A DNA stretch of 23,738 nucleotides. Origin: a virus. The first letter of the stretch is position 1. Each line of letters begins with the position of its first letter. Location of the stretch: positions 1 to 23,738 of IMG/VR virus record IMGVR_UViG_3300045125_000115; one strand, given 5' to 3'. The notes below the pieces were generated by a model. The model did not search any database, had not been told where the DNA came from, and saw only the letters and a list, made by a program, of their open reading frames with translations. The translations under genes were made by a program, and so were the position numbers. Shown here one piece after another: positions 6,033-23,507 of this stretch.

Positions 6033-6607
6033 ATGGAACACTTTTATAATGAAAATATTTTTGGAGAAAATTGGTTTGATTATTCGGAATTATATAAATC
6101 ACAAGTAAATAAAGCAATAGACGGTAGCCATTTTGTAGAAGTTGGATCGTGGAAAGGTAGAAGTTCTGCTTTTATGGCTGTAGAAATAATAAATTCTGGT
6201 AAAAAAATTAAATTTGATTGTGTGGATACTTGGACTGGAACAGAGGATTTGAATGAAAAAGCATCCGTTCCAGAATATCAAAATGATCCAGCCATATTAA
6301 ACAATACATTATATGATGTTTTTTTAAAAATAATGAAAAAGTTTTACATATAATAAATCCCATAAAAATGTCTTCGACCAAGGCTTCGTTATTATATGAA
6401 AATGAATCTTTAGATTTTGTATTTATCGACGCATGTCATACTTACGAGTGTGTTGACGCTGATATAAAGGCATGGCTTCCTAAAATTAAAATAGGTGGTA
6501 TGTTGTGCGGCCATGATGCCGGATACGGGCCAATCGATTTAGCTGTGGCTCACAATTTACCTGGAAATATAAAAAGTGGTTCTTGTTGGCTATACAATAA
6601 AAGTTAA
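6033..6607 (+). CDS. Class I SAM-dependent methyltransferase (Methyltransf_24-like)
   Basis: The start ATG 6033 (MEHFYNENIFGENWFDYSEL) is 7 bases after the FkbM stop. HFVEVGSWKGRSSAFMAVEI (about 34-53) is motif I; KIKFDCVDTWTGTEDLN (about 59-75) holds the acidic end of strand 2 and the W-x-G seen in this family; SLDFVFIDACHTYECVDADI and LPKIKIGGMLCGHDAGYGP are the strand 4 D-x-x-H-x-Y and strand 5 GG..GHD motifs. One indel near 6330-6345 splits the gene; the restored junction reads KNNEKVLHIINPIKMSST. It ends at TAA 6605-6607, just before the promoter of the replication block, so it is the last gene of the sugar island. Predicted length is about 190 residues. Substrate unknown, most likely a sugar by context. 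Confidence 0.7.
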
Positions 6608-6618
6608 ATAACTTAAAT

Positions 6619-6647
6619 TTGACTTTTTATTGATTATAAAGTATAAT
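6619..6647 (+). promoter_or_regulatory. Sigma70-type promoter, TTGACT-17-TATAAT
   Basis: TTGACT (6619-6624) and a perfect TATAAT (6642-6647) are separated by 17 bases, the optimal spacing, in the short gap between the sugar island and gp55. Transcription would start near 6653-6655. A second promoter with the same TTGACTTTTT start lies at 23474, which argues against chance. It would serve host RNA polymerase for early or middle expression of gp55 and the genes after it. Confidence 0.65.
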
Positions 6648-6653
6648 GTTAAC

Positions 6654-7205
6654 GTGAAAAAACCAAAGAAAAAGAAAGCTAAACCATCAGATGATGATTA
6701 TGTTGACAATAATCAGCTCTATAATGCTTTAGTTGAATACAATAAAAAAGTAAAAGAAAATGAAAACTCTGGAAGAAAAAAACCAAAACTACCAGATTAT
6801 ATCGGTGAATGTATTTTAAAAATTGCAAGCCGTTTGTCATATAGACCAAATTTTGCAAACTACCCCTACAGGGAAGAAATGGTATCAGATGCTGTTTTAA
6901 ATTGCATAACTTATATTGACAACTTTGATCCAAAAAATCAACCAGCCCATTTGGTTATCTTAACCCAAATATGCTGGTTTTCTTTTGTTCGTATTATAAA
7001 CAAAGAAAAGAAAGAAAAGTATACCCAGTATAAATTTGCAGAACAGCAAAACAATAAAGACTTTCAAAATTGGTTTAATGAAACTTATGCTGGAATAGAT
7101 ATAGGAAGAAGAGATTTCTTTGGCTTGACTGATTCAGATATGGAAAGATTTGATGAAATGATGAATCACAAAAGCAAAAATAAGAGAAAAAGAAAGCAAA
7201 AATAG
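6654..7205 (+). CDS. 55: T4 gp55-like sigma factor for late transcription
   Basis: gp55 is the phage sigma factor that directs host RNA polymerase to late promoters (TATAAATA-like), activated by gp45. The frame is fully open. It opens with a Lys-rich segment (KKPKKKKAKP), then YVDNNQLYNALVEY, then YIGECILKIASRLSYRPNF and YREEMVSDAVLNCITYIDNF, the sigma region 2-like core, then TQICWFSFVRIINKEKKEKYTQYK. The C-terminus is basic (KSKNKRKRKQK). The stretch QPAHLVIL before TQICW departs from the usual NPF-Y-FTQI; another frame of the same DNA reads SPFGYL, so a compensating pair of indels may sit near 6940-6965. No ATG fits; GTG 6654 gives the best N-terminus, with TTG 6630 as alternative. The GTG coincides with the predicted transcription start. 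Length about 183 residues, near the T4 gp55 size of 185. Confidence 0.87.
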   Translation: MKKPKKKKAKPSDDDYVDNNQLYNALVEYNKKVKENENSGRKKPKLPDYIGECILKIASRLSYRPNFANYPYREEMVSDAVLNCITYIDNFDPKNQPAHLVILTQICWFSFVRIINKEKKEKYTQYKFAEQQNNKDFQNWFNETYAGIDIGRRDFFGLTDSDMERFDEMMNHKSKNKRKRKQK

Positions 7206-7218
7206 AATTATTTGACAT

Positions 7219-8275
7219 ATGAAAGCAATAATATTTCAACGATACCCATTTCGGGTATAAAGCAGATTCTTCAATTGTATTGGATTATTTTCTTTCTTTT
7301 TTTGAAAATCAACTTTTTCCTTACATAGTTAACAATAAAATTAGAACCAATGTTTCATCTTAGGTGATTTGTTTGATCGAAGAAAATATATTAATTTTAA
7401 AACTTTAAACAATGTTCAGTCAAAGATTTTTTGAACCTTTAAAAGACCATCGGTATCCGCTGCCATGTTATTTGTGGAAATCACGATACATTTTATAGAA
7501 ATACAAACAATGTAAATTCATTGAATGAATTGGCCAGCCATTATTCTAATTGGTCAGTTTATTCCGAACCAACAGAAATTGAACTTGAATATGGTTGTGT
7601 TGCATTGCTTGCCTTGGATCAATCCAGAAAACGAAGATGAAGCAGCAAAATTTTTACAAGACAAGTACATGCTTCAATTCTTACTTGGCCACCTTGAACT
7701 ATGTGGGTTCCAAAGCCATTCGTGGAGTATTTGTGGAGCAGGGATATGATCATAAGCACTTCGACAAGTTTGAGTATGTTCTTACTGGGCATTATCATGT
7801 TAAGTCTAGCCGGGATAACATTCATTATCTCGGTACACAATATCAGATGGCTTATTCGGATGTGTGGGAAGAGAAAGGCTTTCATGTCTTCGATTTCAAG
7901 AACCGCACTCTTGAATTTGTACCAAATCCAGAGAAGCTTTTCTATACGCTTGATTATAACGAAGACTCACCTGAAAAGATAAACTATGAACAATACAAAG
8001 ACAAATACGTCAAAATTTTTATCAAAAACAAAACTAAGCAAAATCAATTTGAAAAGCATATCGACAAATTTTATGAAGCTGGAGTTGCTGAACTTCCAGT
8101 TGCAGAAGAAGTAACTTCAAATCCAGAATTGGTGGCGGTAGACATTCACAAAGACACTCTTCAACTGCTGCATGAAGAACTGGACACAATCAACGAGAAG
8201 TCCGTAAACAAGAATACGCTTGCCGAAATCATAAACACGGCGTATAATAGTGCACTGTCAAAGGATGAAGAATGA
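7219..8275 (+). CDS. 47: T4 gp47-like recombination endonuclease subunit (Mre11-type)
   Basis: gp47 is the nuclease of the gp46/47 complex, the phage Mre11-Rad50, which resects DNA ends for recombination-dependent replication. Phosphodiesterase motifs are visible in order across several frames: SDTHFGYKAD near 7229-7265 (D-x-H), GDLFDRRKY near 7363-7390 (G-D-x-x-D), GIRCHVICGNHDTFYRN near 7449-7505 (G-N-H-D), LLGHLELCGF near 7683-7712, and LTGHYHVKS near 7783-7808 (G-H-x-H). Start ATG 7219 gives MKAIIF before the first motif. From about 7690 to the end the frame is open (GVFVEQGYDHKHFDKFEYV... to ALSKDEE). The stop TGA 8273-8275 overlaps the gp46 ATG as ATGA, so the two subunits are translationally coupled. 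At least four indels fall in the first 470 bases. Restored size about 350 residues, as in T4-like phages. Confidence 0.88.
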
Positions 8276-9979
8276 TTGAATTTGTATCGGTAAAAATTAA
8301 AAACTTTGGTTCGTTTGGAAATAATTTTACTGAAATAAAACTGAATACAAATAAGACCACCTTGGTCACGGGAACGAATGGAAATGGCAAATCCTTCGCC
8401 CTGCTTGACTCCCTTTGCTTCGGTTTGTTTGGAAAGCCATTCCGACCCATAAACATTCCTCAGCTTGTAAACAGCATTAATGGCAAGCATTGCGTTGTTG
8501 AGATTGAGTTTAAACGGTCAAACTCAACATATCTGGTTCGTCGTGGTCTGAGTCCAAAGATGTTTGAAATTCACAAAGATGGTGAATTGCTAGACCAGCA
8601 TGCTAAATCCAAGGATTACCAAGAACATTTTGAAGAAAACATACTTGGATTTAATTATGCAGCGTTCAAGCAAGTAGTTATTCTAGGTAAGTCAAACTTC
8701 ATTCCTTTCATGCAATTGACACCAGCGGAGCGCAGAAAGATTATTGAAGGGCTTTTGGACTTGGATATTTTGGCTGACTATGAACACGTATGTCAAAGGC
8801 CAATTAGGTTCACTCAAAGTATCGATTGCCGAAAATGAATCTTTTTTAAAGATTGCTCATGAAAAGATCAAAGCACAGAAAAGTTTTATCGAACAGGTAA
8901 AAAATTACAATGCTGATGATATTCAAGTGCCATAGAAGACAAAATTAAATCGTTTGAAGACAATATCAAACTTAGCAAGTCTGAACGGGTTGAGCACGTG
9001 AAGCAACTTGAAAAAAATTTAGATGAAGCAAAGAAGCAAAAAAGATAATAGATCCTTTAAAAATGTTCCAGTGATGTTGGCAAAAGCAGAAGCAATGGAA
9101 GTAACTCTGAAAGAAGAAATAGAGTCTTTGAAAACTTCTGCTGTCTGCAGTTGCTGTGGTCAGGATCTTCCAAAAAATCAAAAAGAGAAACACATAAAAG
9201 AAAAAGAAACAAAACTTTTAGAATGCCAAAAAGCATTGAAGATTGCAAAAGAAAAGAATCAAGAACTATACAATGCACAGGACGATTTCAAGGCGTATAA
9301 TGTAACCATGGACACCATTAGCGATGACATAATGGGAATTGATTACAGAATCGGAAACGGTGAAGAAAACGTAAAACGGCTTAAAAAAGAAAAAGCAAGA
9401 AAAACAAGAAGCAAGCAATATTACTTCATTGGAACAAACATTAAAAGAATCTGAATCTGAGAAAGAAGACCTTTCGAACAAACTTCAGGGCTTAATCAAT
9501 GAGCAAATTCACCACGACGTTGTATATGATATTCTCAAAGATGGTGGGCTTAAGAGCCGAATCATCAAACATTATGTTCCCATCATCAATGGACTCGTCA
9601 ACAAGTTCCTCGGCAAACTTAACCTCTATGTTGACTTCAACATCGATGAGGACTTCAAGGAAACAATCAAGTCAAGATACCGAGATGAATTTTCATATTC
9701 CTCTTCTCTGAGGGAGAAAAGCAGCGTATCGATTTGGCCATACTGTTGACATGGAGAGAGATTGCAAAGATGAAGAACAGTTTGAACTGCAATCTTCTTA
9801 TTTTTGATGAAATTCTCGACTCATCTTTGGATGCTACTGGAACAGAGTCTTTCCTTAAGTTGTTAAATAAGATGAAAAGCAAATGTTCTATTTACATCAT
9901 AAGCCACAAAGCAGATGCGTTGGCAGATAAATTTGATTTGCATATGCATTTTGAAAAGAAAATAATTTTTCTAGAGTAA
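8272..9979 (+). CDS. 46: T4 gp46-like recombination endonuclease subunit (Rad50-type SMC ATPase)
   Basis: The ATPase partner of gp47. Seen in order: TLVTGTNGNGKSFALLDSL (about 33-51; Walker A G-x-x-G-x-G-K-S), FKQVVILGKSNFIPFMQL (Q-loop region), a long charged coiled coil, the zinc-hook CSCCGQDLP near 9149-9177 (C-x-x-C), a second coiled-coil arm, then near 9703-9770 FSEGEKQRIDLAILLTWREI after correction (ABC signature), NLLIFDEILDSSLD (Walker B and D-loop) and YIISHKADAL (H-loop His). It ends FEKKIIFLE with TAA 9977-9979. Indels fall near 8790, 8930, 9040, 9410 and 9710-9720; the last converts the signature into SSLREKSSV. Full length about 570 residues agrees with the family. All catalytic motifs survive once corrected, so this is a functional gene in a noisy sequence. 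Confidence 0.88.
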
Positions 9980-10003
9980 AGACGCAAATCTAAATATTTG
10001 TGG

Positions 10004-10288
10004 ATGTTCAAGGGAAAATATAAATCTAAAAACACTTTTGGTGATACGGTAACTATATTCACGTGGTGATGTAGTATTAGATCAAGGAAAAGTGTATCAG
10101 TGTCTTGAAACCACATCAGGAAGTCCTATTCAATTTCCAAAAAATGGAAAATTACAGCAATATCAAATCCATTTCATGGATCCAATCCACCTATAAATCC
10201 AATTGAAAATCAAATTTAAATCAGTGATTCGGGTATTCAATATATTTATTTTAAAGATCCAAATGGTTATCAGTGGATTGAAACTTGA
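10004..10288 (+). CDS. Small phage protein of unknown function, frameshifted
   Basis: A short gene between gp46 and gp45. ATG 10004 gives MFKGKYKSKNTFGDTVT, then after a shift near 10050 YSRGDVVLDQGKVYQCLETT, a second shift near 10140, and finally SDSGIQYIYFKDPNGYQWIE-T ending TGA 10286-10288. The pattern Y..GD.V...G..Y.CL...SP..F resembles the small chitin-binding-like beta modules often seen in virion proteins, and the C-terminal YFKDPNGYQWIET suggests a second beta hairpin. I do not recognise the family. T4 also carries several small genes between 46 and 45. Size about 95 residues. Confidence 0.45.
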
Positions 10289-10318
10289 TTTGAATAATTT
10301 AGGAGATATAATAGAGTC

Positions 10319-10486
10319 ATGAATGAAGACAGTTTTGAAAAGTTTACTAACCGCAGAAAGAAAAAGCCGTCTAATTTTGGAAGAAAACAAGAAAACCGTA
10401 GCAAGCGTGGAAACCGTCATGAGCAAAAACAACAGCTCAATGATATGATCTATAGAAAGAAAGATAATTATGACAACTGTGACTAA
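10319..10486 (+). CDS. Small basic protein of unknown function
   Basis: An intact 55-codon frame: MNEDSFEKFTNRRKKKPSNF, then RKQENRSKRGNRHEQKQQ, then DMIYRKKDNYDNCD. GGAGATATAATAGAG precedes the ATG (ribosome-site-like GGAG at 10302-10305). The composition is extremely rich in Lys, Arg, Asn and Gln with almost no hydrophobic residues, so it is probably disordered and may bind nucleic acid or a partner. Its end overlaps the possible gp45 start at 10470 by 17 bases. Its position just before the clamp gene recalls T4 rpbA (gene 45.1), an RNA-polymerase-binding protein, but rpbA is larger and no similarity can be claimed. Confidence 0.5.
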   Translation: MNEDSFEKFTNRRKKKPSNFGRKQENRSKRGNRHEQKQQLNDMIYRKKDNYDNCD

Positions 10487-11155
10487 AATGCGTTTGACCA
10501 AAGAAACATTTTCTCTACTTAAAAATTTTGCTGAAATCAACTCAAACATCCTGATTAAACCAGGAAGTACAATTCGCACAATGTCTGTTGGTAGAAATAT
10601 CTACGCAGAGGCAACAATTCAAGAAGAGTTTGATACAGAAGTTGGTATCTGGGATCCTAATAAGTTCCTTGGTATCATCAGCATGTTTTCAAACCCTGGA
10701 TCTGGAGTTCAACGAGCAATACGTTGATATTTCAAATGGACGCTCTTCTGTTCGTTACTATTATTCAGAAGCATCTCTTCTTCTAACAGTTCCCAACAAC
10801 AGAGAATTGAAGATGTCTGATTCAATCGTTTCTTTTGGATCTTGATGAAAATGATTTGAATGAGATTCTTAAGGCATCACGCATTCTACAGGTGAGTGAT
10901 GTTAAAATTATCGGAGAAGATGGCGGTAATGAAGATTGTTGTAGATGATTCTGCAAACACTCACTTCCAATAGTTTTTCTGTGGCAATTGATGAAAACTA
11001 CTAATCTGGTCCTAGATTATCAAGGTACAATCAATGTATCGGAAATCAAATTTATGCCCGGTTCTTATACTGTAGAACTGACAAAGTCAATTATTTCAAA
11101 ATTTACTCATAAGTCTCAAAACCTGGTTTATTACATCGCAATCAATAGAGCCTAA
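10470..11155 (+). CDS. 45: T4 gp45-like sliding clamp
   Basis: gp45 is the trimeric DNA polymerase clamp and also the mobile activator of late transcription through gp55. ATG 10470 gives MTTVTKMRLTKETFSLLKNF; ATG 10488 (MRLTKETF) matches the usual clamp N-terminus equally well. Then INSNILIKPGSTIRTMSVGR (about 22-41), FDTEVGIWDPNKFLGIISMF (about 53-72), LEFNEQYVDISNGRSSVRYY after a shift near 10705, ENDLNEILKASRILQVSDVK near 10850-10905, MKIVVDDSAN and SNSFSVAIDEN near 10930-10995, and GTINVSEIKFMPGSYTVELT near 11030-11090. It ends QNLVYYIAINRA with TAA 11153-11155. Restored size about 225 residues, as in T4 (228). At least five indels. The gene lies in the canonical order 46-45-44-62-regA. 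Confidence 0.85.
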
Positions 11156-11156
11156 A

Positions 11157-12101
11157 GTGTCTGATATTAATAGTGTGTTGTGGGTTGAAAAATATCGACC
11201 CAAATCTTTGTCTAATTGCATTCTTCCAATTGATCTTACCACCGTATTCAATGGTATGATCAAGGAAGGTGTTATACCAAACATGTTATTCTATGGCAAA
11301 GCTGGCACGGGCAAAACTACGGTTGCCCGTGCCATTGCCAAGGATCTTGATTCAGAATATATTTTAATCAATTGCTCCGAAGAAAACGGTATAGATACTC
11401 TACGTACAAAGATTCGTCAATATGCATCTACAGTTTCCTTGAATGGAAACATGAAGATTATTATTCTTGACGAGTTTGATTACGCCAATCCACAGTCGAT
11501 ACAGCCAGCTTTGCGTGGAGCAATCGAAGAGTTTCATAAAAATTGCAGATTCATTCCTCACTTGCAATTACAAGAACAGAGTAATTGATCCATTGCATTC
11601 CAGATGCACTGGAATTGATTTTACTGTTCCATCAGCAGAAAAATCTCAGATTGCAAAGTCCATGCTTTCTCGATTGAATACATACTTACAAATGAAAAAA
11701 TTCCGTATGAGCAGTCGGTTATTGCAAATCTCATCAAGAGGCATTTCCCGGATCTTCGCAGAATTATCAATGAACTGCAAAAGCATTCTTCTTCTGGAAA
11801 GATTGATGTCGGAGTATTGGCACAGAGTAGCTGCGAATCCTACAAAGAACTCATCGGATACATGAAGGCAAAGGACTTTGCTTCTTGCCGTAAATGGGTA
11901 GTCTCAAAATCTGGATCTGAACACCACTGAATTCTTTAAAAAGCTCTATAACGAACTGTATACGGCTCCCAAGCCAAACTCAGTCCCACAGGCGATTCTG
12001 TATATCGCAGAGTATCAATACAAAGCTGCGTTTGCAGCCGATCAAGAAATCAATACCATGGCTCTTGTAGTGCAGCTAATGATGGATTGTGAGTTCAACT
12101 A
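11157..12101 (+). CDS. 44: T4 gp44-like clamp loader large subunit (AAA+ ATPase)
   Basis: gp44 forms the ATPase ring that with gp62 loads gp45 on DNA. The best start is GTG 11157 (MSDINSVLWVEKYRPKSL), one base after the gp45 stop; there is no ATG. VEKYRPKSLSNCILP (about 9-23) is the clamp-loader N-terminal motif, LFYGKAGTGKTTVARAIAKD (about 43-62) Walker A, IIILDEFDYA (about 101-110) Walker B with D-E-F-D, LTCNYKNRVIDPLHSRC the sensor 1 region and S-R-C arginine finger. After shifts near 11560, 11690 and 11910, the collar domain continues (RHFPDLRRIINELQKHSSSG; KLYNELYTAPKPNSVPQAI) and ends MMDCEFN with TAA 12099-12101, overlapping the gp62 ATG as TAATG. Restored size about 315 residues, equal to the family. 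Confidence 0.88.
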
Positions 12102-12491
12102 ATGGTTTTAAAGGACTTTTTGAATAGCATCAATCACGACAAAAAACCACTTCTGGATTCAGAAGAAATTGGTTCAAGTAAGTATCCTGCATTTGTTGTT
12201 AACAAATGCATGTCTTATTTTAATGATACAATTTTTTATGCCAATGAAATGAATTGCAATCCTTGGATTGATGCTAAAGCTCAATTTGATTTTTACAGAC
12301 TGGGTGTTCGCAAAAAGAAGAGATATTCACCTTGGCTTGAAAAAGAAGAAGACAATGATATTGCAGTGATTAAAGAGGTTTTTGGATATAGCGAACCGAA
12401 GGCAAGGGAAGTGCTAAATATTATTAGCCCACAAGACATTGAAAAATTAAAAAAGTCTTTGGAAAAAGGTTGGGTTAAAAACTTAATATAA
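12102..12491 (+). CDS. 62: T4 gp62-like clamp loader small subunit
   Basis: An intact 129-residue frame that begins in the TAATG overlap with gp44, so the two loader subunits are translationally coupled. MVLKDFLNSINHDKKPLLDS at the N-terminus, KYPAFVVNKCMSYFNDTIFY (about 27-46), AKAQFDFYRLGVRKKKRYSP (about 59-78) with WLEKEE after it, and a helical C-terminus (GYSEPKAREVLNIISPQDIE) are the standard marks of cyanophage-type gp62. These proteins are shorter than T4 gp62 (187 residues). It has no ATPase motif, as expected. It is one of the few genes in the window with no visible indel. Confidence 0.86.
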   Translation: MVLKDFLNSINHDKKPLLDSEEIGSSKYPAFVVNKCMSYFNDTIFYANEMNCNPWIDAKAQFDFYRLGVRKKKRYSPWLEKEEDNDIAVIKEVFGYSEPKAREVLNIISPQDIEKLKKSLEKGWVKNLI

Positions 12492-12500
12492 AGGTGAGTT

Positions 12501-12927
12501 ATGTCAGAAGCTTCGGATAAGATTTTTAATAAAGTTGGCGTACATGTAAAATTAATGGATGAAGAAGACTTCATGGTTGTCCGTGAAACTCTTTCCAGAA
12601 TTGGTGTATCGCCCAAAGGGAAAAAAGTATTATACCAATCTTGTCACTTAATCCATAAAAATGGAGTGTATATTATTGCACACTTCAAAGAACTATTTGC
12701 ACTAGATGGATTACCCTCAAATGTTTCGTGAAGAAGATATTAAAAGAAGAAATGCAATTGTAAAATTGCTTGAAGATTGGGAATTGCTAGAAGTAATTGA
12801 TAAAGAAAAATTAAAAATCAAATACCTATCAATGCTATGAAAATTATTCGTTATAATAGAAAAAGATGATTGGGAATTAATACCAAAATTCAATCCCGGT
12901 TCTCTGCGTAAATTTTTTAATTCATAA
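12501..12927 (+). CDS. regA: RegA-like translational repressor of early genes
   Basis: RegA binds the ribosome-site region of phage early mRNAs and blocks translation, including clamp and loader genes. The ATG 12501 has AAGGTGAG 5 bases upstream. EEDFMVVRETLSRIGV (about 21-36), KKVLYQSCHLIHKNGVYIIA (about 41-60) and HFKELFALDG (about 61-70) align well with T4 RegA. A shift near 12718 is followed by REEDIKRRNAIVKLLEDWEL, and after another near 12838 by EKDDWELIPKFNPGSL; the gene ends KFFNS with TAA 12925-12927. Restored length is about 140 residues, slightly longer than T4 RegA (122) because of the N- and C-terminal ends. Position directly after gp62 matches the canonical order. Confidence 0.87.
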
Positions 12928-12929
12928 GG

Positions 12930-14156
12930 ATGACAATGCACAAATTAACTTTAAGTATGATTGTGAAAAACGAGGCACCAAATATTGAAAGATGCCTTGA
13001 ATCAGTTTCGCCTTTTATTGATTATTATAGTATCTGTGATACTGGATCTACTGACAATACAAAGGAAATAATCAAAAACTTTTTTGATAAAAAGGGAATT
13101 CCTGGGGAAATTCACGACCACGAATGGTCTGATTTCGGAACAAATAGATCAAAAGCTCTTGAACTTTGTTTGGGCAAAACAAAATGGGCATTGATGATCG
13201 ATGCAGACGACTTCATTACAGGAACTCTTCCAGTTGATAAATTTGATGACAATATCGACTGGCTATGTTGTTAAAATTAAACGTGGACCTTTTGAATGGT
13301 ATCGCGCACAACTTTTTAATCTAGGAAAAAGAAATGGTGGTACGAAGAACCATTGCACGAATATGCCTGTTGTGAACAGCCAATGAATATTCAACGTCTT
13401 GAAGGTGATTATGCTTGGGAGGTCAGAACAGAAGGATGTCGTTCCAGAGAAACAAACGGAGATGATAGAGAAAAGTATAGAAGAGATTATCATATCTTGA
13501 AGAAATACATTGATGAAAATCCAGACCAGCCAAGAAAACAATTTTATCTGGCACAGTCAGCATTCGATGCTCATATGTTTGACGTTGCAGAAAAAGAATA
13601 TGAAAAACGTACAAAAATGGGCAACTGGATTGAAGAAGTTTTTTATTCTTGGATGCGTGTTGGGATGTGCAGAGAAATTATTGGAAAGCCGGTTGAACAG
13701 GTTATTGATGCATTTATGAATGCATATGAAACTCTTCCAACAAGAGTGGAACCGTTATATCACATGTCTTGCATTTATAGGAAGCATGGAAGAAATAAAA
13801 ATGCATTTATAATGGCTCATATGGGATTGACAATACCGATGCCAACAGACCACATCCTCTTTGTAGATACTGCAAATTATTTGTGGGGCATTCTTGATGA
13901 AAGTGCAACCACAGCAGCGCATGTAGGAAAGCATCATATGGGTTTGGCAGCATGTGAAAAACTTCTTTCAGAACCACATTTGCCACAAGAACATAGAGAA
14001 CGTGTAGCAAACAACAGAAATCTTTATTTAAAAATTGTACAGGATTATCAACGACAAATAGAAGATCAACAGAAAAAAGTTTTGGAAAATGTGAAAAATA
14101 CTGCAAACAAAACAACATTAAATTTTGATCCAAATAAAGTTGCAGTAACCCTTTAA
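12930..14156 (+). CDS. Glycosyltransferase family 2-like protein with helical-repeat C-terminal domain
   Basis: ATG 12930 (MTMHKLTLSMIVKNEAPNIE) or ATG 12936 follows a TAAGGA site overlapping the end of regA. The N-terminal domain is GT2-like: LSMIVKNEAPNIERCLESV (about 8-26), ICDTGSTDNTKEII (about 35-48), DFGTNRSKALELC (about 68-80) and ALMIDADDFI (about 87-96; D-A-D-D metal/nucleotide motif). After shifts near 13260 and 13345 (GYVVKIKRGPFEWYRAQLF; WWYEEPLHEYACCEQPMN) a long helical domain runs open from 13353: DQPRKQFYLAQSAFDAHMF, PLYHMSCIYRKHGRNKNAFI and LLSEPHLPQEHRERVANNR look like tetratricopeptide-type helices. It ends QRQIEDQQKKVLENVKN and a short tail, TAA 14154-14156. Restored size about 405 residues. 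T4-like marine phages carry such proteins. It is followed by a terminator and closes the early block. Confidence 0.77.
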
Positions 14157-14162
14157 AAAAAT

Positions 14163-14170
14163 CATAAATA
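14163..14170 (+). promoter_or_regulatory. Late-promoter-like CATAAATA
   Basis: CATAAATA differs by one base from the T4 late promoter TATAAATA and fits the looser NATAAATA reported for cyanophages. It lies in the 54-base gap before the first structural gene (ATG 14211), the right place for gp55-driven late transcription. Predicted start about 14177, exactly the first base of the hairpin. AT-rich sequence makes chance matches common, so this is a moderate call. Confidence 0.45.
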
Positions 14171-14176
14171 CTTAAT

Positions 14177-14206
14177 AATGACCTACATATAGGTCATTGT
14201 TTTTTT
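14177..14206 (+). terminator. Intrinsic (rho-independent) terminator
   Basis: AATGACCTA (14177-14185), loop CATA, and TAGGTCATT (14190-14198) form a perfect 9-base-pair stem with a 4-base loop, followed by G and seven T. It lies 20 bases after the glycosyltransferase stop and before the structural genes, so it should end the early/replication transcript. It is the only clear intrinsic terminator in the window. Confidence 0.85.
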
Positions 14207-14210
14207 AAAA

Positions 14211-14632
14211 ATGTATCCAGAAAATTATGACATCATTGCAGTTCAAGGAGACACCATAAGGTGGTCTAAATTTTTTATTGACGAAACAACGGGAACTACT
14301 TTTAATTTTAATTCAAATTATGTTCTAAAGAATTTACAATGAAAACGGATACTATCCAGCTTCGGTGGTTGCCTCTTACATGAAGCAGGTTTTGTCCGGA
14401 TTGACTTTAACATCTCCGGACGGACTTGCAGGTGAGTATAGGCGTTGGAAGTGGAACAACTGGTGGCACCTGCAATTTTTGTATTGGTTGGAGTTTTTCA
14501 AATGAAATGTCAACCGATAGAATGTGCAAATATGATTTTAAAGCAAATAATACCACGACAAATAGCATAACTACTTTATTAAGAGGCAATATTCAAATAT
14601 TACCACAAGTAAATTACATACAAAATATTTGA
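14211..14632 (+). CDS. Probable small phage structural protein, frameshifted
   Basis: ATG 14211 gives MYPENYDIIAVQGDTIRWSK, then FFIDETTGTTFNFNSNYV. The opening 'Q-G-D-T-x-R-W...D..GT.FN....' is the pattern of small baseplate/appendage domains in tailed phages. After shifts near 14330 and 14425 it continues YNENGYYPASVVASYMKQVL, SIGVGSGTTGGTCNFCIGWS and MCKYDFKANNTTTNSITTLL, then RGNIQILPQVNY, ending TGA 14630-14632. The 'YDFK....N....LL.GNI.ILP.V' end matches the final strand pair of that domain (Y-D-L...V..LL.G...V.P..T). Restored length about 140 residues. No Shine-Dalgarno site is visible. First gene of the late block. I cannot name the precise family. Confidence 0.55.
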
Positions 14633-14642
14633 TAAAAAAATA

Positions 14643-14861
14643 ATGTTCTTCGGAAAGAACAAAACATCTTTGAAATTAGTCAAACAGCACCCAGAATTGC
14701 TGATGGGTTGTGATTATTACATTGTTGAAAATGCACTAAATCCCAAAAAAATTAAAATTGGTTTAGGTTTAACTAAATTATATTTGAAAAACCCTGATGG
14801 CGAAGAATATTTAATTGAAGGTAACGCATCAACTATAAAGAATTTTTTGTTCCTGCTATGA
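14643..14861 (+). CDS. Small protein with a domain repeated in the next gene
   Basis: MFFGKNKTSLKLVKQHPELL (1-20) leads to YYIVENALNPKKIKIGLGLT (about 26-45), KLYLKNPDGEEYLIEGNAST and IKNFLFLL, stop TGA 14859-14861. The second half aligns with residues about 34-76 of the following protein: K-I-K-I-G-L-G-L-T..Y......I.GN...IKN against L-Q-L-G-I-G-I-T..Y......I.GN...IKN. As sequenced, the stop overlaps the next ATG as ATGA, typical translational coupling. However, one extra T in the T6 run at 14843-14848 would fuse the two frames (IKNFFVPAMTFENLDGK), making one protein with two copies of the domain. Both readings are viable. Function unknown; a fibre base or assembly role is a guess from position. 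Confidence 0.5.
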   Translation: MFFGKNKTSLKLVKQHPELLMGCDYYIVENALNPKKIKIGLGLTKLYLKNPDGEEYLIEGNASTIKNFLFLL

Positions 14862-16774
14862 CATTTGAAAATTTAGATGGAAAACTAGTTAAAATAAAGC
14901 AATCGGTAGGACCGTTTCATCAAAATGAAATTTTAAAAGAAATTGGTCCATGCCAATATGATGAAAAATTACAATTGGGAATAGGTATTACTGAACAATA
15001 CTATATTCAAAAATATACCAATAAAGTAATAAAAATTTACGGAAATTCCAAACAAATTAAAAATTTATTTGAAGATCTGTTTTCTGATAAGAAAAAAACA
15101 GAAAATTATGTACAAAAAGTTGTCATAAATGAAGAAAACGAAGAACAAAGCATAAAAATAAAAGGAATCAAAGGGAGATAAAGGTGATAGGGGTGATGTT
15201 GGTCCACGTGGATTAATAGGACCAGCTGGTGCAAAAAAGGACCAAAGGGGGATAGGGGGGGGAACAGGGGGCCCCAAGGTCCACAGGAAGAACAAGAGTG
15301 AAAAAGGGAGAAAGAGAGGAGAAAAAAGGTTCTGGAGGATTCCACGGTCTTCAGGGAGAAAAGGGAGACAAAGGAGATATTGGACCAGTTGGGCCACAAG
15401 GACCACAGGGTGAAAAAGGTCTCGATGGAAAAGATGGAAAAGATGGTGCACGTGGGATTATGGGCTTCAAAGAGAAATGGGCCCCAAGGACCAATTGGTC
15501 CAAAGGAGAACCGAGGACAACCCGGAAAACCAGGAAAAGACGGTGAATCCTCAATAATAAGTGCAAAATTATCCTTTAATTTTAAATAAAAGGAACTTTA
15601 AGTTTTGATTCTGAAAAGTTTACAAAAGTAATTGATCAGTTAAGAAACACTGATGATATCCAAAATGCCATAAACAAATTGTCAGCAGCTTAATGAGTGC
15701 TGGTGGCGGAGCAGTCGGCATTAAAGAAAATGGAAATTATGTTTTAAAATCTGTAAATGATATAAATTTTACCGGTAATGGAGTATCGGTAAACAGAACT
15801 AGTAAAGATGTTACCATAAACCATTACTGGTGGGGGTGGTGGAATATCAGTAAAGGGAACTCAAGGTTCTTTGCAATTTGCAAATAGCGCAGGAAATGAT
15901 CTTGAATTTGCTACAGATCTCAAATATGATTCAAGCACAAATTCTCTTGAAGTTCCTTCAATTTTAAGAATTAACTCAAAATTCTGGTCCTGGTTATATT
16001 GAATTTCCAGATGGAACAACACAAGGAACTGCTGCCTGCGGAGTTGCTGGAAATACTTTGGTGCAGCTTGGGAGCAACGGGCCCCCAAGGAATTCAGGGA
16101 AACACTGGTGCTACTGGTGCCCAGCGCACCAACCTATGGTCTTACATCAAGTATATATTTTTCGGAATACATAGACCAAATTAAATTTACAGTGTATGGC
16201 GTTGGAGCGGATTTTCAGCTTCGCCACAACTTTTTGGACAAAATGATGTAACTATAACAATTTTATTTTGCTGAATCGACAACCAATACATATTCTGCAA
16301 TTAATATTGAATCTTATCAAGTTTATTTTGATGATACTAATGGGTGGTCTATCCGATTTTATAGTTAAACCTATATTTGAAGGTTGGATTTTTTGCGGAT
16401 GATATTGTAAATCAACAGGGTGGATTCTATTACACAGAAATTACTTATCAAACTATTGGTGCAGTCAATTACAGATAGTTGGACGAATGGTTTTGGAGGT
16501 CGAGGAGTGACATTTAATCAGATCATAAGTGAAGCCCGAGACCTATGTTACTAAAACCATTACTGGACAATCTTGGGTTACACTGCAAATTCTTTTTTAT
16601 TTCATGCAAAGTAATGGGTCTTACATCCGGTGACCATACTCCAGAAGATGCCATACTGGAAGGTGTTCAATATGAGATAAATAATATAGTTCCCGGAACA
16701 GGCTTTGATATAATACGAGACATGCCCCCGAAGGAACATACGGAAAATATGCGATAGAAATTTTAGGACAATAA
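14858..16774 (+). CDS. Collagen-like phage fibre protein, frameshifted
   Basis: The N-terminal domain (MTFENLDGKLVKIKQSVGPF, QLGIGITEQYYIQKYT, IYGNSKQIKNLFEDL) repeats the fold of the preceding small protein. It is followed by Gly-X-Y repeats at about 15170-15545 (GLQGEKGDKGDIGPVGPQG and others), then SSIISAKLSFNF, SFDSEKFTKVIDQLRNTDDI, SAGGGAVGIKENGNYVLKSV, FANSAGNDLEFATDLKYD, GYIEFPDGTTQGTA, a second short collagen run (QLGATGPQGIQGNTGATGA) and a C-terminal head with SSIYFSEYIDQIKFTVYG, AINIESYQVYFDD and HTPEDAILEGVQYEINNIV, ending YGKYAIEILGQ with TAA 16772-16774. Collagen-like stretches form trimeric rods in phage fibres; 'YDS.TN.L.VP...' and 'FPDGT.Q.TA' are usual fibre motifs. At least ten indels are present, several in G runs. 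Restored size about 640 residues. Confidence 0.75.
15170..15545 (+). repeat. Collagen-type Gly-X-Y repeat region
   Basis: After joining frames this stretch encodes at least 30 Gly-X-Y triplets rich in Pro, Lys, Asp and Glu, such as GDRGDVGPRGLIGPAG, GEKGDKGDIGPVGPQG and GQPGKPGKDG. GGN codons cause a purine-rich, G-rich local composition unlike the AT-rich neighbours. G runs (for example near 15255-15262 and 15268-15272) coincide with the breaks in frame. A second, shorter collagen run lies near 16060-16120. Confidence 0.8.
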
Positions 16775-16787
16775 GGAGTCATAAAAA

Positions 16788-18285
16788 ATGGGCGTTAACA
16801 TAAAGGGGTGGAAATAATTCAGCAGGTTTGGCAAACGTTAGTGATACTTACGAACTTCAAAGGTAGTTACACCACAAACAGAAATCAATGCAGGGTTCGT
16901 TCAGTTAAGCACTGAAGTGGATGCTGGTGTTGTAACTGGTACACGAACTGTAATTGCCTTAGAATGTTCAGACGACTATCGTCTTCGTGTTGGATTGGAT
17001 CAAACCTTATTCAATGCTACATTTGAAGGCACCACAATCCTCTCACGACTTCGTGGAACCAGTTGCTCACAACAATGACGGCAGCACAATCCAACGGTTC
17101 TTGGCTTTAAACAGCGGTACCTCAACTGCATCAGGACACGCTGCATATCTGCGTACACACAGACATTTTTCAACTTTTGGAACATATCCAACATACGTGG
17201 ACTTGTGGGTCCGTGAAACAAATCCCACGGCCACAAACGTGATCCACGAATGGGGACTTTTTGTTCTTGACGGCACAGGCAACACAACAGCCAATCGATG
17301 GAATTTTCTTTAGACGTATTTCAGGTGGACAGTTAAAGGCAATTATCCACAAATAACTCCGTTGATGTTGCGGAAGCAAACATAAACACAACAAACGTTC
17401 CTCAAGAGATGGTACTGGAACATTTGATGCAACAGAAGCAAATCATTATTTAATTGCATTTCACAACGATGTTGTTCGGTTTTGGATTAATGATGTTTTA
17501 GTTGCTGAAATTTTGTCTCCCGCCGCACAAGCACAATTTTCTTCGTCATCTGCCACACCCGTTGGATTCCGCGTGCTAAACACTGGTGCTGCATCGGCAG
17601 CTCGCCAACTTTCCGTGGGTTATGTAAACGTGGGAATTGGTGACCAAAATACAAACAAACTTTGGTCCCATGTAATGTGTGGTTTGGGAAATGGTGCGTA
17701 TCAATTTGCACAAGGCAACACACCAGGTCCAACCGTTACTCGCGCATCTGGCGCAGCAGGACACCCTGCAAGCGGTACTGCCCGTATTGCAGGAACGTGG
17801 ACAGCTACATCAGCTCCAGCACTAAACAACCTTGGAGGATTGTGGACAAGCCCTGCAATGTCAACACTTGCGTCTGATGCGGATTATCCAGTCTTTGCAT
17901 TCCAAAACCCAACAGGAACCGCAACTCTTCCGGGCAAGACACTCTATATCACCGGAATTCGTGTTGAAGCTTATGTGGCCATGCTGCTTCTACCAACGCA
18001 ATATTCCTTTCATATATCGTAATGGTTGGTAACAGTGCAGCTACTACCAGTACAGCAGATGCTGCAACCACAGTATCGGGTAAATCGATTACGGTTGGTG
18101 GACATGGTTTTACTGCAACAGAAGCAGTTGGAAACTATAAAGCAGGATTTGAGGTAACATTTGATGCTCCATTGATGGTTCCTGCTGGACATTATTTTCA
18201 TTTTGTAGTGCGTCCATTCGGTACAGTTACAAGCAATACGCTAGTAGTAACAAGCAGCCTTGCAGTAAACGGATATTTTGAATAA
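16788..18285 (+). CDS. Phage structural protein, first paralogue of a duplicated pair
   Basis: TAAGGAG (16772-16778) lies 9 bases before ATG 16788. MGVNIKGGNNSAGLANVS opens the gene (one extra G near 16806). Then VVTPQTEINAGFVQLSTEVD, DDYRLRVGLDQTLFNATFEG, THRHFSTFGTYPTYVDLWV, HEWGLFVL, ATQQPIDGIFFRRISGGQLK, ATEANHYLIAFHNDVVRFWI, then an open stretch from about 17513 (SPAAQAQFSSSSATPVGFRV, ARQLSVGYVNVGIGDQNTNK, GHPASGTARIAGTWTATSAP, SDADYPVFAFQNPTGTATLP), and lastly GKSITVGGHGFTATEAVGNY with PAGHYFHFVVRPFGTVTSNT, ending LAVNGYFE and TAA 18283-18285. Beta-rich, Gly/Thr/Ser-rich composition without any enzyme motif suits a virion surface or fibre protein, a type I associate with T4-like phages, but I cannot name its place in the particle. 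Restored size about 500 residues. Confidence 0.65.
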
Positions 18286-18562
18286 TGGCACTCGCACAAA
18301 TACTTCAAACCCCACACGGAGTTCCTGCTCTGTATTGGAAGATTGGATCTGCAACATTTAATTTGAACGGTTCTTGCACGATACGCATTGACGGATATTT
18401 TGACGAATCTGCGTAGACAGGAATCAGGTCATGCGGCGATTCCATATACACAATCTCACAGAGATGTCAACCGCGTTTCCTTCAGGATTCACGATTGCTG
18501 ATGCGTATGCGTATGCAAAAACTCAAGTTGATTTTTCTTTTGGTGCAATTGACATAATTTAA
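18285..18562 (+). CDS. Small protein between the two structural paralogues
   Basis: The ATG at 18285 overlaps the previous stop as TAATG. MALAQILQTPHGVPALYWKI (1-20), GSATFNLNGSCTIRIDGYFD (21-40), then after an indel near 18415 RQESGHAAIPYTQSHRDV, and after another near 18475 AFPSGFTIADAYAYAKTQVD, ending FSFGAIDII with TAA 18560-18562. The pattern 'TPHG..A.YW.I......N....I..DGY.D...R..G...I.Y....' is that of a small conserved beta-domain found in clusters of tail or fibre genes; I know no function for it. Size about 92 residues. Tight coupling to its neighbour suggests the two act together. Confidence 0.55.
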
Positions 18563-18576
18563 AGAGGAAAATATAA

Positions 18577-20122
18577 ATGGGCGTAAAAATTATTGGTGGA
18601 AACAGTTCAAATGACTTGGTTGACATAGACGCTTTACACCAAACAAAAATTGTCACACCTCAGACAGAAACCAATGCTGGATTTATTCAAGCTAGCGCAG
18701 AATCAGATTCAGGTGATGCTACTGGTTCTCGTTTAACTAGAGCAATAACAGCATCTGATGATTACCGCACTCGCGTTGGTTTTGATCAAAGTATTTTTAA
18801 TGCAACATTTGAAGGTACAGCCGTCAATACATTGATTTTTCTAATGCAACCACAGTAACATCAACAAGCCAAGCTAACGGATTTTTGATTTTAAATTCTG
18901 GTGGTGTAAGCTCATCCAGGGTGCGGCAGCTTATGTTCGTTCGTGGAGACTTTTTCCAACGTTTGGGACGTATCCGATGTATGCTGACATGTGGATTGCC
19001 GAAGGTGGTCATCTTGCAGTAAATGCAATTAGCGAATGGGGTTTTTTATTTTTAACAGCACTGGCAACACAACAGCCACTTGATGGAGTGTATTTTAGAC
19101 GCCTATCCGGTGGTCAATTGAAAGGGATTGTCACCAACAACGCAATCGATATTGCAGAAATAACTTTAAATACAATTTCTGTTCCGTCCAGAGATGGAGG
19201 ATTGGTTTGTATGATCCAACAGAAATAAATCGTTATCTTGTCACGATAGACAATAGCATCGTGCAATTTTGGATAAAATGATCGCGCTTTGTACAGGAAG
19301 TATTCTTTGCACCATCCGCTCAAGCACGATTTTCTGGTTCTTCACAAATTCCTGTTGGATTTCGCGTGGTAAACATTGCTCACTGCTTCTCAAGCAACGA
19401 ACAATAAACATTGGTTGCGTCAATGTTGGTTATGGTGACTGCAAATACAAACAAGTCGTGGGCAGATTCGATGGTTGGAGTCGGGTGGTGGCGCATATCA
19501 ACTACAAACTGGAAATACATCTCAGGTCCAACAGTTACTCGCACTGCTTCTCCACGACAGGACACCCCGCGAGCGGCAACCGGCGCGTGCGGCCGGCACC
19601 CGGACAGCCACAGGTTCAGCCCGGCACTCAGCAATCTTAGGAGGTTTGTGGACATGTCCTGCTATTTCATCTGCTGGCGTCTGACGCGGATTATCCTGTG
19701 TTTGCTTTTCAAAAATCCATCTGGTATAGCCAGCAAGACCGGGTAAAACTCTGTATATTACGAGCGTTCGTATAGGTGATACCAGTCCCTCAGTTGCAGC
19801 GTTAACCAATCCAATCAGTCCTATCTTTCGTAGTGATGGATTGGTGGAGCTGGCAGCAGCTTACAAATACTGCGGATTCAGCCACAGCCATATCAAACAA
19901 ATCCATAACAATTGGTGGTCAAGCTGTTTTCTGCCACTGCGGCGGTTGGAAGTTATGTAGAAGGATCTCAAATGAAATTTTCTTCTCCGCTTGTTGTGCC
20001 GCCCGGAATGTTTATAGACTTGGTTGTTCGGTTGTTCGGAACCGTTACAGGCATCGCATTGGTTCTAAGAAGGTAAAGCGTGTCTTTCATACGGATACTT
20101 TCAGAATAATAAAAATAAATAG
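18577..20122 (+). CDS. Phage structural protein, second paralogue, heavily frameshifted
   Basis: AAAGAGGA precedes ATG 18577. MGVKIIGGNSSNDLVDIDAL, IVTPQTETNAGFIQASAESD and DDYRTRVGFDQSIFNATFEG match the first copy closely. Later blocks also align: FPTFGTYPMYADMWIAEGG, AISEWGFLFL, ATQQPLDGVYFRRLSGGQLK, GIVTNNAIDIAEITLN, RYLVTIDNSIVQFWI, RFSGSSQIPVGFRVVN, SGPTVTRTAS, ILGGLWTCPAISSAG, SDADYPVFAFQNPSG (corrected), GKTLYITSVRIGD and VVPPGMFIDLVVRLFGTVTG. The end reads SYGYFQ...NK with TAG 20120-20122, but the last frame is uncertain. At least twelve indels. A GC-rich patch at about 19560-19620 falls where the first copy reads GHPASGTARIAGTWTATSAP. Diverged enough from copy one to be an old duplication. 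Confidence 0.6.
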
Positions 20123-20128
20123 ATAGTC

Positions 20129-23100
20129 ATGCCATGGAATTTTCCAACAAATCCATCAGCAGGCCAAACTTACTCCTATGGGGAACACCAGTGGGAATAA
20201 TACAATGGTGTTGCATGGGATAAAAATTATTTTTGCAGATGATTCCATAAACGCACAAATCTGTGGTGTTTCTGGTGATCGATTTGTAGAAAATCTTCAA
20301 ACTGGATTGTTATACGGTGGATTGCTTTCTATCAATGCTGGAAACACGGCAACCTTGATCTTACGGTGTTGGAATAATTGTAGCACTTAATGGAAGTACT
20401 ACGGGATATCCGTCTCCAACAGTCACAAATGTTACATGGAGCGCAAAAACTGGAGTTACTCTATCCGGATTAACTGGCCATGACGTGACATGTTGCGATG
20501 AATAGCAGTGGTAATTTGCGCAATCTGTTACGGAATTTACAGATGCCCAGTATGAACTTCGATTCCTCGGGTGCCCTGATTCACCCATCAAAATTTATAT
20601 TTCATTTTGCCAAATCATACCCACATATTTCCTATGGCCAACCGTCTCAATTTGACCCATTCATTAGGGCATTTGGTCCATTAAAACTTTCAGGTCATGA
20701 AATTTCTGGGTATGATGCAACTTCTTACAACTTGTGCGTTCTTCGGGCAGTGCTTATTCGATGGGCAGAAATTATGTTACGGATCCAAATAATCCAAACA
20801 TTGTATTTGATAAATTCCAATCCAGTTTCTACAATTTATCGCCAATACAGAGGTGCAACTGCTGGTACATTTATTACTGTAATTAATACTAGTGTTGATG
20901 CCACGAAGTACGACAATGGAACTGGAACGCTGGCATCTGTTCCAGGTGGGCAATATAGCATTCAACGTTTATATTATTTCCCTGGAGAACCAACTGTGAT
21001 GTTGGTATATTATGAAGAGCACATTATAATAGCATAGATACAGTTAAAAACTGCAATACCATTTGAACAATTTTCTGGAATCAGAGGACACGGCGCAAAA
21101 TGCAATATTTTGTGGTTATTTGATTATTAAAAGTGGAATTAGTACTCTTAGTGCAACTTGTGATTATTCATTTGTCCAAGCCGGTTTATTCCGAAATAGT
21201 ACAAACGTAGGTGGTGGCGGTGTTGCTGCGGCATATTTGGATGATTTGTATGATGTAACGATTACAAGTAAGCAATAATCAGGCACTTGTTTATGATTCG
21301 GCAACTTGAACTGGGTCAACAGAAGCTTTACATCTCTTCCAGTAGTATCAAGTTTTAATGGACTTACTGGTGCAGTTACTGGTGTTTCAGTATTCGTGGG
21401 CTGACTGGTGCTGTTGGTCTGACTAATGGCTCTGGTATTGGTTTATCTGTCTCTGGAAATACTCTGACTGTTTCAAATACTGGTGTGTTGAGTATTAATG
21501 GTTCGACTGGCACTATTACAAATATTGCTCGAACCAATGTTGATAATAATTTTAGTGCTTCACAAACAATCAACGCGCTCTGGAGCAGTTTTTGGAATTT
21601 ATGACACATTAAACAGTGCAGGAGTTACAATTGATCCAGCATCAAATGATATTATCTGGACAAATGGATTAAACCAATCCACTTTAAGATTTTAATCCTC
21701 AAGGTCAAGTTGTTACTTTACCAAACATAACAACAACTCTTGCAGGTCTTTCAGGCACTCAAACATTTGGTGGAACAAAGACCTTTAATGCTCTGACAAA
21801 CTTTAACGCAGGAATTAGTTCAGCAGGAGGAACTTTAGCGCACTCACAAGATTCACTGCAGGGGAATTAGTGCTTCTGGCAATGTAACATTAATGGTTCT
21901 TTATCAGGAACTACAGGATTTCACTTTGGGATTTCCAACATCAGCATCAGGATACATACAATATGTTCCAGCCCCTATCCTTCTGGTGGTCTTCTTTTAA
22001 CTGGATCTCAAATTTTTCAAATTGGTGGAGTTACTGTTATAGGAAATGGATTCTGGTTTCTAAATGTTGATCCAAATGGTGAAAGATTGTTGTTTAATGG
22101 CCGTACAGAATTTTATGTTAATCAAGGATATCAATCAGCTATCTCTCCATTATCTATTGCACTTGGTGATACTCATACAGGGCCAACCTATGCGTATTAC
22201 TAAACAAAGCACAACAGGAAGTATAGATTCTGCTAGAATTATCGCTGGTTGTGATTCAAATGGTATTTGGTATGGTTTTGGTTTTAGTGGGTGGTACTGG
22301 AGGTGGCACTACATTCTCTGGTAACGTAGCCAGCGACAAGTACATCATCGCATACTGATTGGCCAGTTTTGCTGGTGGTATAGGTGCTGCTGGTGCTACA
22401 TTTACCGGTATAGTAAACTTAAATGGACAGACATTTAGTAATATCGTTACATCCGTAAATGGGGCTACCGGTGCTCTAGGAACACCAATTGTTCCAGCAG
22501 GATTAACTAGTGCCTCCGTTACAGTATTAACATTTCCAAGTGGGAAATGTTTTGCATCTTTTTAGTTCCAGGATTCCTTATTATCAACCCTTATCAATAT
22601 ACATTCCCACTCTGGCAAATCCTTCTGGAGTTGTAGCGTCTAATAGAGTTTATTTTACATTGCATAATGCTCCAAGACAAATTTCTATACACACTATAAG
22701 ATTTAGCGCCAATAGTACAGGAATTACAGGCAATTGTTTTATTGGAGTATACAGTGCAAATTCTATTACCGGAATGCCCAATCCCTTACTATACAGTTCT
22801 ACATCTATAGCAGCTGCTAGTGGATTTCTCCGGACAAACATCGGCTACCAATGCATCTGGTTTAGTTACAATTCCCGCTGGCTCCCTCTTTATTGCTACT
22901 GTGTTCAGTAGCACCCCGCACAATATATTCTTCTTAAGTAGCGTATATAATCTTCCAGTTTTGGTTCTGGTGCTGCTACTTCTGGTTATCAAAATATAAG
23001 TCCATTCGCAGATCTAACTGGATTTACTCTCCCAACAAGCTTGCCTTCCACGGGAATAACTCTTGGATTCATTGATTATGTTCCAACTAATATTCCTGCC

Positions 23101-23130
23101 GGAATAATGTCAGAATACAGGATTGTATAA
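20129..23130 (+). CDS. Large phage tail fibre protein, heavily frameshifted
   Basis: ATG 20129 gives MPWNFPTNPSAGQTYSYGEH with NGVAWDK soon after, the short 'FP.NP..GQTY...G..W.WNG.AW' module that opens many T4-like fibre and structural proteins. Next comes GDRFVENLQTGLLYGGLLSI; the middle has SMGRNYVTDPNNPNIVFDK, GTFITVINTSVDATKYDNGT, GQYSIQRLYYFPGEPTVMLV and YSFVQAGLFRNSTNVGGGGV, then repeats typical of marine phage fibres: VSSFNGLTGAVTGVSV, LSVSGNTLTVSNTGVLSING, STGTITNIARTNVDNNFSAS, FNAGISSAGGTL, GGIGAAGATFTGIVNLNG and VTSVNGATGALG. The C-terminal head (from about 22500) has SNRVYFTLHNAPRQISIHTI, GNCFIGVYSANSITGMPNPL, SSTPHNIFFLSSVYN and ITLGFIDYVPTNIPAGIM, ending YRIV with TAA 23128-23130. 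I treat it as one gene of about 1000 residues because no credible internal start-stop pair appears, but two adjacent fibre genes are possible. Confidence 0.68.
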
Positions 23131-23131
23131 C

Positions 23132-23477
23132 ATGAAATACGCAACAGAACAAATTTTTGATGAATTGACAAACACTTATATTTTAATCGATGAAAGAATA
23201 TTTCATGATTGTGTTTTTAAGACAATTGATGACTGTCAAAGAAATTGCAAAGAACGTATATTAAAAGTTGCACCAGAACACAAACAAAAGCAAATGCTGC
23301 ATTGGGTCTTCTTTCAGACGAAGGAAACAAATCAAATTAAAAATAAATATACAAAATATCTCGATCTATTTCTAATTCTTTGGAACAACAAATTTTGGAA
23401 ATAACTTGGGATGGTACTGAAGAAAATAGACCAACAGCGTGCGGAAGCGCAAAGTGCAAAACATAAGATGGCCTTGA
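23132..23477 (+). CDS. Small fibre-associated protein, frameshifted
   Basis: ATG 23132 begins one base after the fibre stop: MKYATEQIFDELTNTYILID, then RIFHDCVFKTIDDCQRNCKE. After a shift near 23290 it reads KNAALGLLSDEGNK, then ISRSISNSLEQQILEITWDG, TEENRPTACDAVQNIRWP (with one further correction), and TGA 23475-23477. Restored length about 115 residues. The C-terminal half, helices followed by 'I.WDGTEENR..ACDAVQ.IRW', is a pattern I associate with small proteins encoded directly after phage tail fibre genes, sometimes assembly factors or fibre-tip partners. That link is inference from position; no domain can be named. Confidence 0.5.
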
Positions 23478-23501
23478 CTTTTTGTTGAATATCATTATAA
23501 T
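23474..23501 (+). promoter_or_regulatory. Sigma70-type promoter, TTGACT-16-TATAAT
   Basis: TTGACT (23474-23479) and TATAAT (23496-23501) with a 16-base spacer overlap the end of the small fibre-associated gene and precede ATG 23508. Like the promoter at 6619 it starts TTGACTTTTT and continues N-TTGA-N-TAT, so the match extends well past the two hexamers. It would give early expression of the dUTPase-like gene. Confidence 0.6.
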
Positions 23502-23507
23502 ATCCAT

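Follow-up and report, generated by a model that had tools for sequence, protein, structure and literature searches.

The question raised by this locus is whether a hairpin that directly follows a T4-type late promoter is part of the late message or a stop signal for the messages transcribed before it. The locus lies in a 23.7-kb (23,738-nt) viral record of an uncultured T4-like phage, IMGVR_UViG_3300045125_000115, the whole of which is called the window here. Megablast found no close GenBank phage for positions 6600-23738. The gp55 of the window was less than 60% identical to those of all 2239 phage records matched; among the best 40 of these matches identity was 36-45%, and nearly all were cyanophages.

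The genes upstream of 14157 are those for gp55, gp47, gp46, gp45, gp44, gp62, a regA-like repressor and a glycosyltransferase-like protein (Table 1). Downstream of the junction in an intact relative, a gene of 140 aa is followed by genes for collagen-like proteins of 647 and 539 aa. This gene order supports the replication/late border recognized in the initial annotation. Homologs of the first late gene are 129-140 aa long in the relatives and match PHROG 1084 (function unknown) weakly; the 42 aa encoded downstream in the window had no match in the search.

Table 1. Positions of the promoter, the hairpin and the neighboring genes in the window.
Feature	Position	Strand	Basis or match
gp55-type late sigma factor	6630..7205	+	phrog_234, E 1.1e-44
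regA-like translation repressor, fragment	12501..12731	+	phrog_242
Glycosyltransferase-like gene, directly upstream	12930..14156	+	phrog_13126
T4-type late promoter CATAAATA	14163..14170	+	Read from sequence
Predicted late transcription start	14175..14177	+	Inferred from T4 spacing and the purine peak in relatives
Stem-loop	14174..14201	+	Sequence, folding, compensatory changes in relatives
T7 run, candidate U-tract for intrinsic termination	14200..14206	+	Read from sequence
First late gene, start	14211..14339	+	Frame broken in window; intact homologs in relatives

The late box was present where it had originally been read. In T4 the late box occupies positions -13 to -6, so that transcription starts twelve bases past the n of nTAAATA (PMC1524935). 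The same spacing predicts a start at 14176, a T flanked by an A on each side, so the earlier estimate of about 14177 was right within 1-2 nt but not to the base. A purine occupied the position 12 nt past the n of nTAAATA in 50 of 58 leadered late motifs in the records of 10 relatives. The perfect 9-bp stem with its T7 tail, placed by the initial annotation at 14177-14206, was also present: AATGACCTA (14177-14185) pairs with TAGGTCATT (14190-14198) around the loop CATA (14186-14189), a G at 14199 separates the core from the T-run, and an ATG follows at 14211. The stem can be extended to 12 bp by pairing 14174-14185 with 14190-14201, including one U-G pair; part of the T-run is paired in this form, and T occupies 5 of the first 8 bases after it.

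Folding showed the stem to be whole in an RNA that starts at 14176, and starts at 14175, 14176 and 14177 leave 11, 10 and 9 bp, respectively, with the U-run complete in the nascent transcript. The predicted late RNA would thus carry the hairpin within a few nucleotides of its 5' end, in agreement with the 5'-terminal stem-loop proposed earlier. The further claim, that the short distance between start and hairpin prevents termination of a late polymerase, does not follow from this geometry, since each of these starts retains 9-11 bp and the entire U-run.

The sequence of the window alone makes the hairpin, and not the box, stand out. The 7-mer ATAAATA occurred 9 times against 12.06 expected, and the box alone is not unusual because the 7-mer is at chance level in this AT-rich window. 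A sigma70-like match at 14152-14179 agreed at 9 of 12 positions, and such matches were also at chance level (66 found, 68.4 expected). Terminator-like sites were in slight excess between 5000 and 23738 (17 found, 11.4 expected, sd 3.2). The leader hairpin folded alone had an energy of -13.2 kcal/mol, with 3 G-C pairs in 9-12 bp, and none of 300 dinucleotide shuffles was as stable (z -5.3). Nor was any of 200 shuffles as stable when the upstream flank was included (14140-14215, z -3.3). The signal was weaker when the start of the gene was included (14176-14240), with z -1.8 and 9 of 200 shuffles as stable. A chance overlap of promoter and hairpin without function would agree with the chance frequency of the 7-mer; it is contradicted by the conservation and covariation described below, and we regard it as scarcely credible. 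At the level of sequence, the main evidence beyond chance is the conservation of the combination of promoter and hairpin in relatives.

Orthologous junctions were collected in overlapping sets: 11 loci through the upstream protein, 22 through the downstream family and 27 through an exact DNA pattern. A further set, not selected for the hairpin, came from an alignment of the upstream protein and comprised 38 loci, of which 5 that ended before the end of the gene were dropped; the remaining 33 represented 28 distinct junctions. A late box of the form [AC]TAAATA (first base by eye) was present in all 28, which, with the gp55 gene in the window, bears out the assignment of the element as a late promoter. 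The hairpin was present in 18 of the 28. In the 10 junctions without it, the ATG lay 1-3 nt after the predicted start (distances by eye). Three weak 6-bp stems, with scores up to 10.5, were not counted as hairpins; two lay inside coding sequence and one spanned the start. The predicted leader in these 28 junctions is either hairpin-bearing or nearly absent, and an unstructured leader was not among them. In the sequences compared, leader and hairpin are thus present or absent together.

Among 33 distinct junctions of a second set, in which stem starts 8-20 nt past the beginning of the 7-mer were accepted, 29 had a hairpin, and all 29 stems started at 8-18 nt. In one clade the stem begins 4-6 nt inside the predicted RNA. 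The sequence GGAG or GGGAG followed the stem by 0-5 nt in 25 of the 29 hairpin junctions as scored by script, and in one more (L009) by eye. The window (14211) and L001 and L002 form a sub-clade that lacks GGAG, unlike the other hairpin-bearing relatives. A short open reading frame in the stem, which in the clade of the window consists of an ATG, one or three codons and a stop, was rejected as a candidate feature, as many relatives have AATAATAGCC there and no ATG.

The element was nearly confined to this junction. Of the 27 matches of the exact pattern in the viral collection, 26 were at the orthologous junction; the pattern occurred once in the long relative G002 and was absent from G009, G010 and G011. 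The sole viral match elsewhere, L080 at 11122, is a long AT-rich palindrome. No Rfam family matched positions 13000-15500 of the window at E values up to 1. Matches in bacterial genomes lacked the downstream family in all 11 cases; hairpins with this shape and a U-run are present in these genomes, and several of the matches look like ordinary terminators.

Compensatory changes were evident in the stem. One pair was A-U in 14, G-C in 13 and G-U in 1 of 28 rows, and another was A-U in 13, G-C in 13 and G-U in 1 of 27 rows. Each row contributed only pairs from its best stem, which a mismatch would have cut short, and L006, in which the anchor is absent, was omitted. Covariation was evaluated in an alignment of 20 of the 29 hairpin rows, which left out the diverged rows L006, L009, L053, L054 and L063 and the near-copies L051, L065, L071 and L083; in rows derived from the pattern, the letters are fixed except at two variable pairs. 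Paired cells made up 97.5% of the alignment, 21 cells were changed on both sides and the covariation score was 0.243; none of 500 shuffles was as high by any of these measures. Controls with slid partners gave 0-2 double-changed cells. The number of pairs changed on both sides (3) and the number of further pair types (7) in the 20 rows were reached by 151 and 500 of 500 shuffles, respectively. On the tree, 2-3 independent row pairs changed in the expected direction or were unchanged, which is too few for significance. The compensatory pair changes argue that the stem structure is selected at the RNA level.

A protein tree of 36 rows (26 of the upstream-protein loci, the window and 9 pattern-derived rows) required at least three changes in the state of the hairpin. 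Repeated loss would be the simpler reading, given that the two halves of the tree have similar stems. These three or more changes would offer a natural test of the effect of a 5' stem on a late mRNA.

The initial annotation regarded the hairpin as a terminator fused to the promoter. A dual element of this kind, which is mainly an intrinsic terminator that ends early or middle RNA and whose hairpin is merely carried along by the late RNA, is a possibility that we take seriously but hold to be doubtful. Its position at the replication/late border, the T7 run and the 12-bp stem are consistent with this role, as is the finding that stems of this shape, followed by U-runs, also exist in the genomes of bacteria. 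The U-run itself depended on how it was scored. By a wide measure (at least 7 T in the 10 bases that follow the final G or C in the 3' arm), 22 of 29 hairpins had one, but by a strict measure (at least 5 T in the first 8 bases past the full stem) only the window did (1 of 29). Terminator-like criteria were passed by 5 of 8 fetched hairpin records (the window, G001, G002, G003 and G007) and failed by G005, G006 and G009. The stem was also kept in lineages with a broken U-run, with the T-run interrupted by AA in L005 and L056, and in lineages with a single G-C pair (4 of 29 stems: L009, L063 and the near-identical L053 and L054). Further points against a terminator as the main function are that the hairpin is missing from 10 of 28 junctions and that an efficient terminator so near the start would be expected to halt the late RNA as well.

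Terminator-like sites elsewhere in these phages had a different arrangement. Among 70 such sites in 12 records, 8 lay at most 40 nt before a late motif, compared with a mean of 1.0 and a maximum of 4 in 300 rotations. These 8 hairpins have 4-7 G-C pairs, compared with 3 in the studied stem, and stand on the opposite side of the promoter; in 5 of the 8 an ATG lies 12 nt from the first base of the motif (by eye). GC-rich hairpins before late motifs were seen at 43381 and 83424 on the + strand of G009, at 3654 in G008, 38171 in G010 and 28820 in G011, and at 66722 on the - strand of G002, and several of these borders continue with an ATG at 12 nt. Terminator-like sites that start 8-20 nt after a late motif numbered 5 of 70, all at the orthologous junction (control mean 0.28, maximum 3). 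The recurring border in these phages thus appears to be terminator, promoter and gene, whereas at the studied junction the hairpin is on the other side and would be part of the late RNA. This position, 3' of the promoter and inside the predicted late RNA, makes a role in the late RNA likelier than termination alone, and both roles are possible.

The same promoter-hairpin overlap, for which the initial annotation proposed to look at other module borders, did not recur there: a strong stem was found at 1 of 82 other leadered late motifs, no more often than at control motifs (10 of 375). Of 89 late motifs whose ATG was over 18 nt distant, 8 showed a strong stem at the start, and the orthologous junction accounted for 7 of them. 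This confinement to the border (1 of 82 elsewhere) fits a border terminator better than a general protector of mRNA.

The explanation that we prefer, and to which we give an even chance, is a conserved leader cassette that drives the first late operon and consists of a gp55-dependent late promoter, a 5' stem-loop and, in most relatives, GGAG. The retention of the hairpin where the U-run or the GC core has been lost supports this explanation. The gp55-dependent promoter would start the late RNA at 14175-14177, and the stem-loop would form the 5' end of the late mRNA and could shield it against decay. By holding the leader, the stem may also keep the ribosome site or the start single-stranded. 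In most relatives, GGAG directly after the stem would act as the ribosome site; it is missing from the window and the two relatives closest to it. The operon driven by the cassette, the first past the replication cluster, is probably of fiber type. In lineages with a preserved U-run, the element would probably also stop early RNA from upstream, as a secondary function. The hairpin thus probably functions within the late message, and it may in addition halt messages made earlier. If both roles hold, the element would show a T4-type phage closing one transcription program and opening the next within about 45 bases.

The position of GGAG next to the stem also bears on a translational switch of the kind known for T4 gene e, in which the promoter strand in read-through RNA pairs with GGAG and hides it, while late RNA, which lacks that strand, is translated. 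T4 gene e and I-TevI, in which a late promoter lies within an inhibitory RNA hairpin that has a function, are the precedents (PMC3014915). The predicted unpaired probability of GGAG was 0.00-0.07 in read-through RNA and 0.48-0.61 in late RNA for L007, L051, L009, L003 and L066, as such a switch would predict. The difference was opposite, however, in 10 of 26 junctions, and only 6 of 26, two of them near-copies, fell in the lowest tenth of shuffled upstream strands; the mean was 0.33 compared with 0.40 for shuffled strands, and the clade of the window has no GGAG to hide. We consider such a switch unlikely. The studied junction resembles gene e and I-TevI in that a late promoter is close to an RNA stem, but differs from them in that its stem lies within the late RNA and does not include the ribosome site.

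The spacing between late motif and ATG was also examined beyond this junction. In four long relatives (G002, G009, G010 and G011), 131 late motifs had an ATG in reach; in 34 of them the distance from the first base of the motif to the ATG was exactly 12 nt, and in 67 it was within 10-16 nt. Among controls at 12 nt, three other A+T motifs gave 1 each and GTAAATA, TTAAATA and [TG]ATTTAT gave 0; two control patterns that share letters with the late motif gave 25 and 10. The four long records (370 kb) contained the exact spacing 35 times (reversed control, 5 times), and T4, S-PM2, Sf-FP1, P-TIM40 and DLP6 combined (922 kb) contained it 6 times. It was absent as a pattern in seven short records including the window, with 1 of 36 motifs at 12 nt and 7 of 36 within 10-16 nt. 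A motif 12 nt before the ATG would make leaderless late mRNAs in the four long relatives. According to a remark in PMC5312081, phage transcripts often lack a leader, and the mere occurrence of leaderless RNA in phages is therefore already known. With late promoters positioned exactly at the AUG, this clade of lytic phages would be a model system in which a virus controls leaderless translation.

These observations suggest a wider reading, which we offer tentatively and with somewhat less than even confidence. The late promoters of the clade would often start transcription at the A of the AUG or beside it and yield many leaderless late mRNAs, whereas the border operon would have an all-or-nothing leader, with a 5' stem-loop and a ribosome site, as a late counterpart of the PeSLs, insulating it from early RNA and giving it its own mode of translation. 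PeSLs, reportedly described by Arbiol in 2010 and Comeau in 2014, are said to be cassettes of an early promoter and a stem-loop in T4-type phages. They are early elements and are dense in shuffled regions. PeSLs of T4-type phages are also named in PMC4503421. Like a PeSL, the studied element fuses a promoter and a terminator-like stem-loop in one small unit; unlike a PeSL, it has a late promoter, a fixed junction and usually a ribosome site after the stem. Its box is of the late and not the early type, and it is not present in many copies. As a composite of promoter and stem-loop at a module border, it could be thought of as a recombination cassette kept as a patch of homology for module exchange. 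Its near confinement to the orthologous junction and the early nature and dense distribution of PeSLs argue against this idea, which we consider very unlikely.

Compared with other known systems, the promoter is close to that of T4 (TATAAATA, used with gp55, gp33 and gp45), with which it shares the TAAATA core and the spacing, and the window has gp55 and clamp genes. It departs from T4 in having C at -13, a position that is variable in S-PM2 and others, and many relatives have C at -12, as in Aeh1 (PMC1524935, PMC2988020). Another departure from T4 is that the predicted start often coincides with the AUG in the four long relatives. A non-exhaustive search of titles and the beginnings of abstracts found no report of a hairpin directly after a T4-type late promoter. 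A stabilizing stem-loop at the 5' end of an mRNA is exemplified by ompA. The studied stem is likewise at or near the 5' end, with the ribosome site next to it in most relatives, but differs from that of ompA in being AU-rich.

Between 6000 and 23738 of the window, frameshifts split gp46, gp45, gp44, the glycosyltransferase-like gene and the fiber genes. The glycosyltransferase-like gene is broken into 12930-13274 and 13353-14156 and is whole in L044 (406 aa); gp45, gp44 and the glycosyltransferase are whole in an intact relative. The frameshifts are probably sequencing indels, and the loop, shorter by one base at 14186, may be among them. Near the end of the record, the 50 bp at 23650-23699 match the right end of phage Mu exactly; this was the only megablast match, and it looks like a remnant of cloning or of a transposon library.
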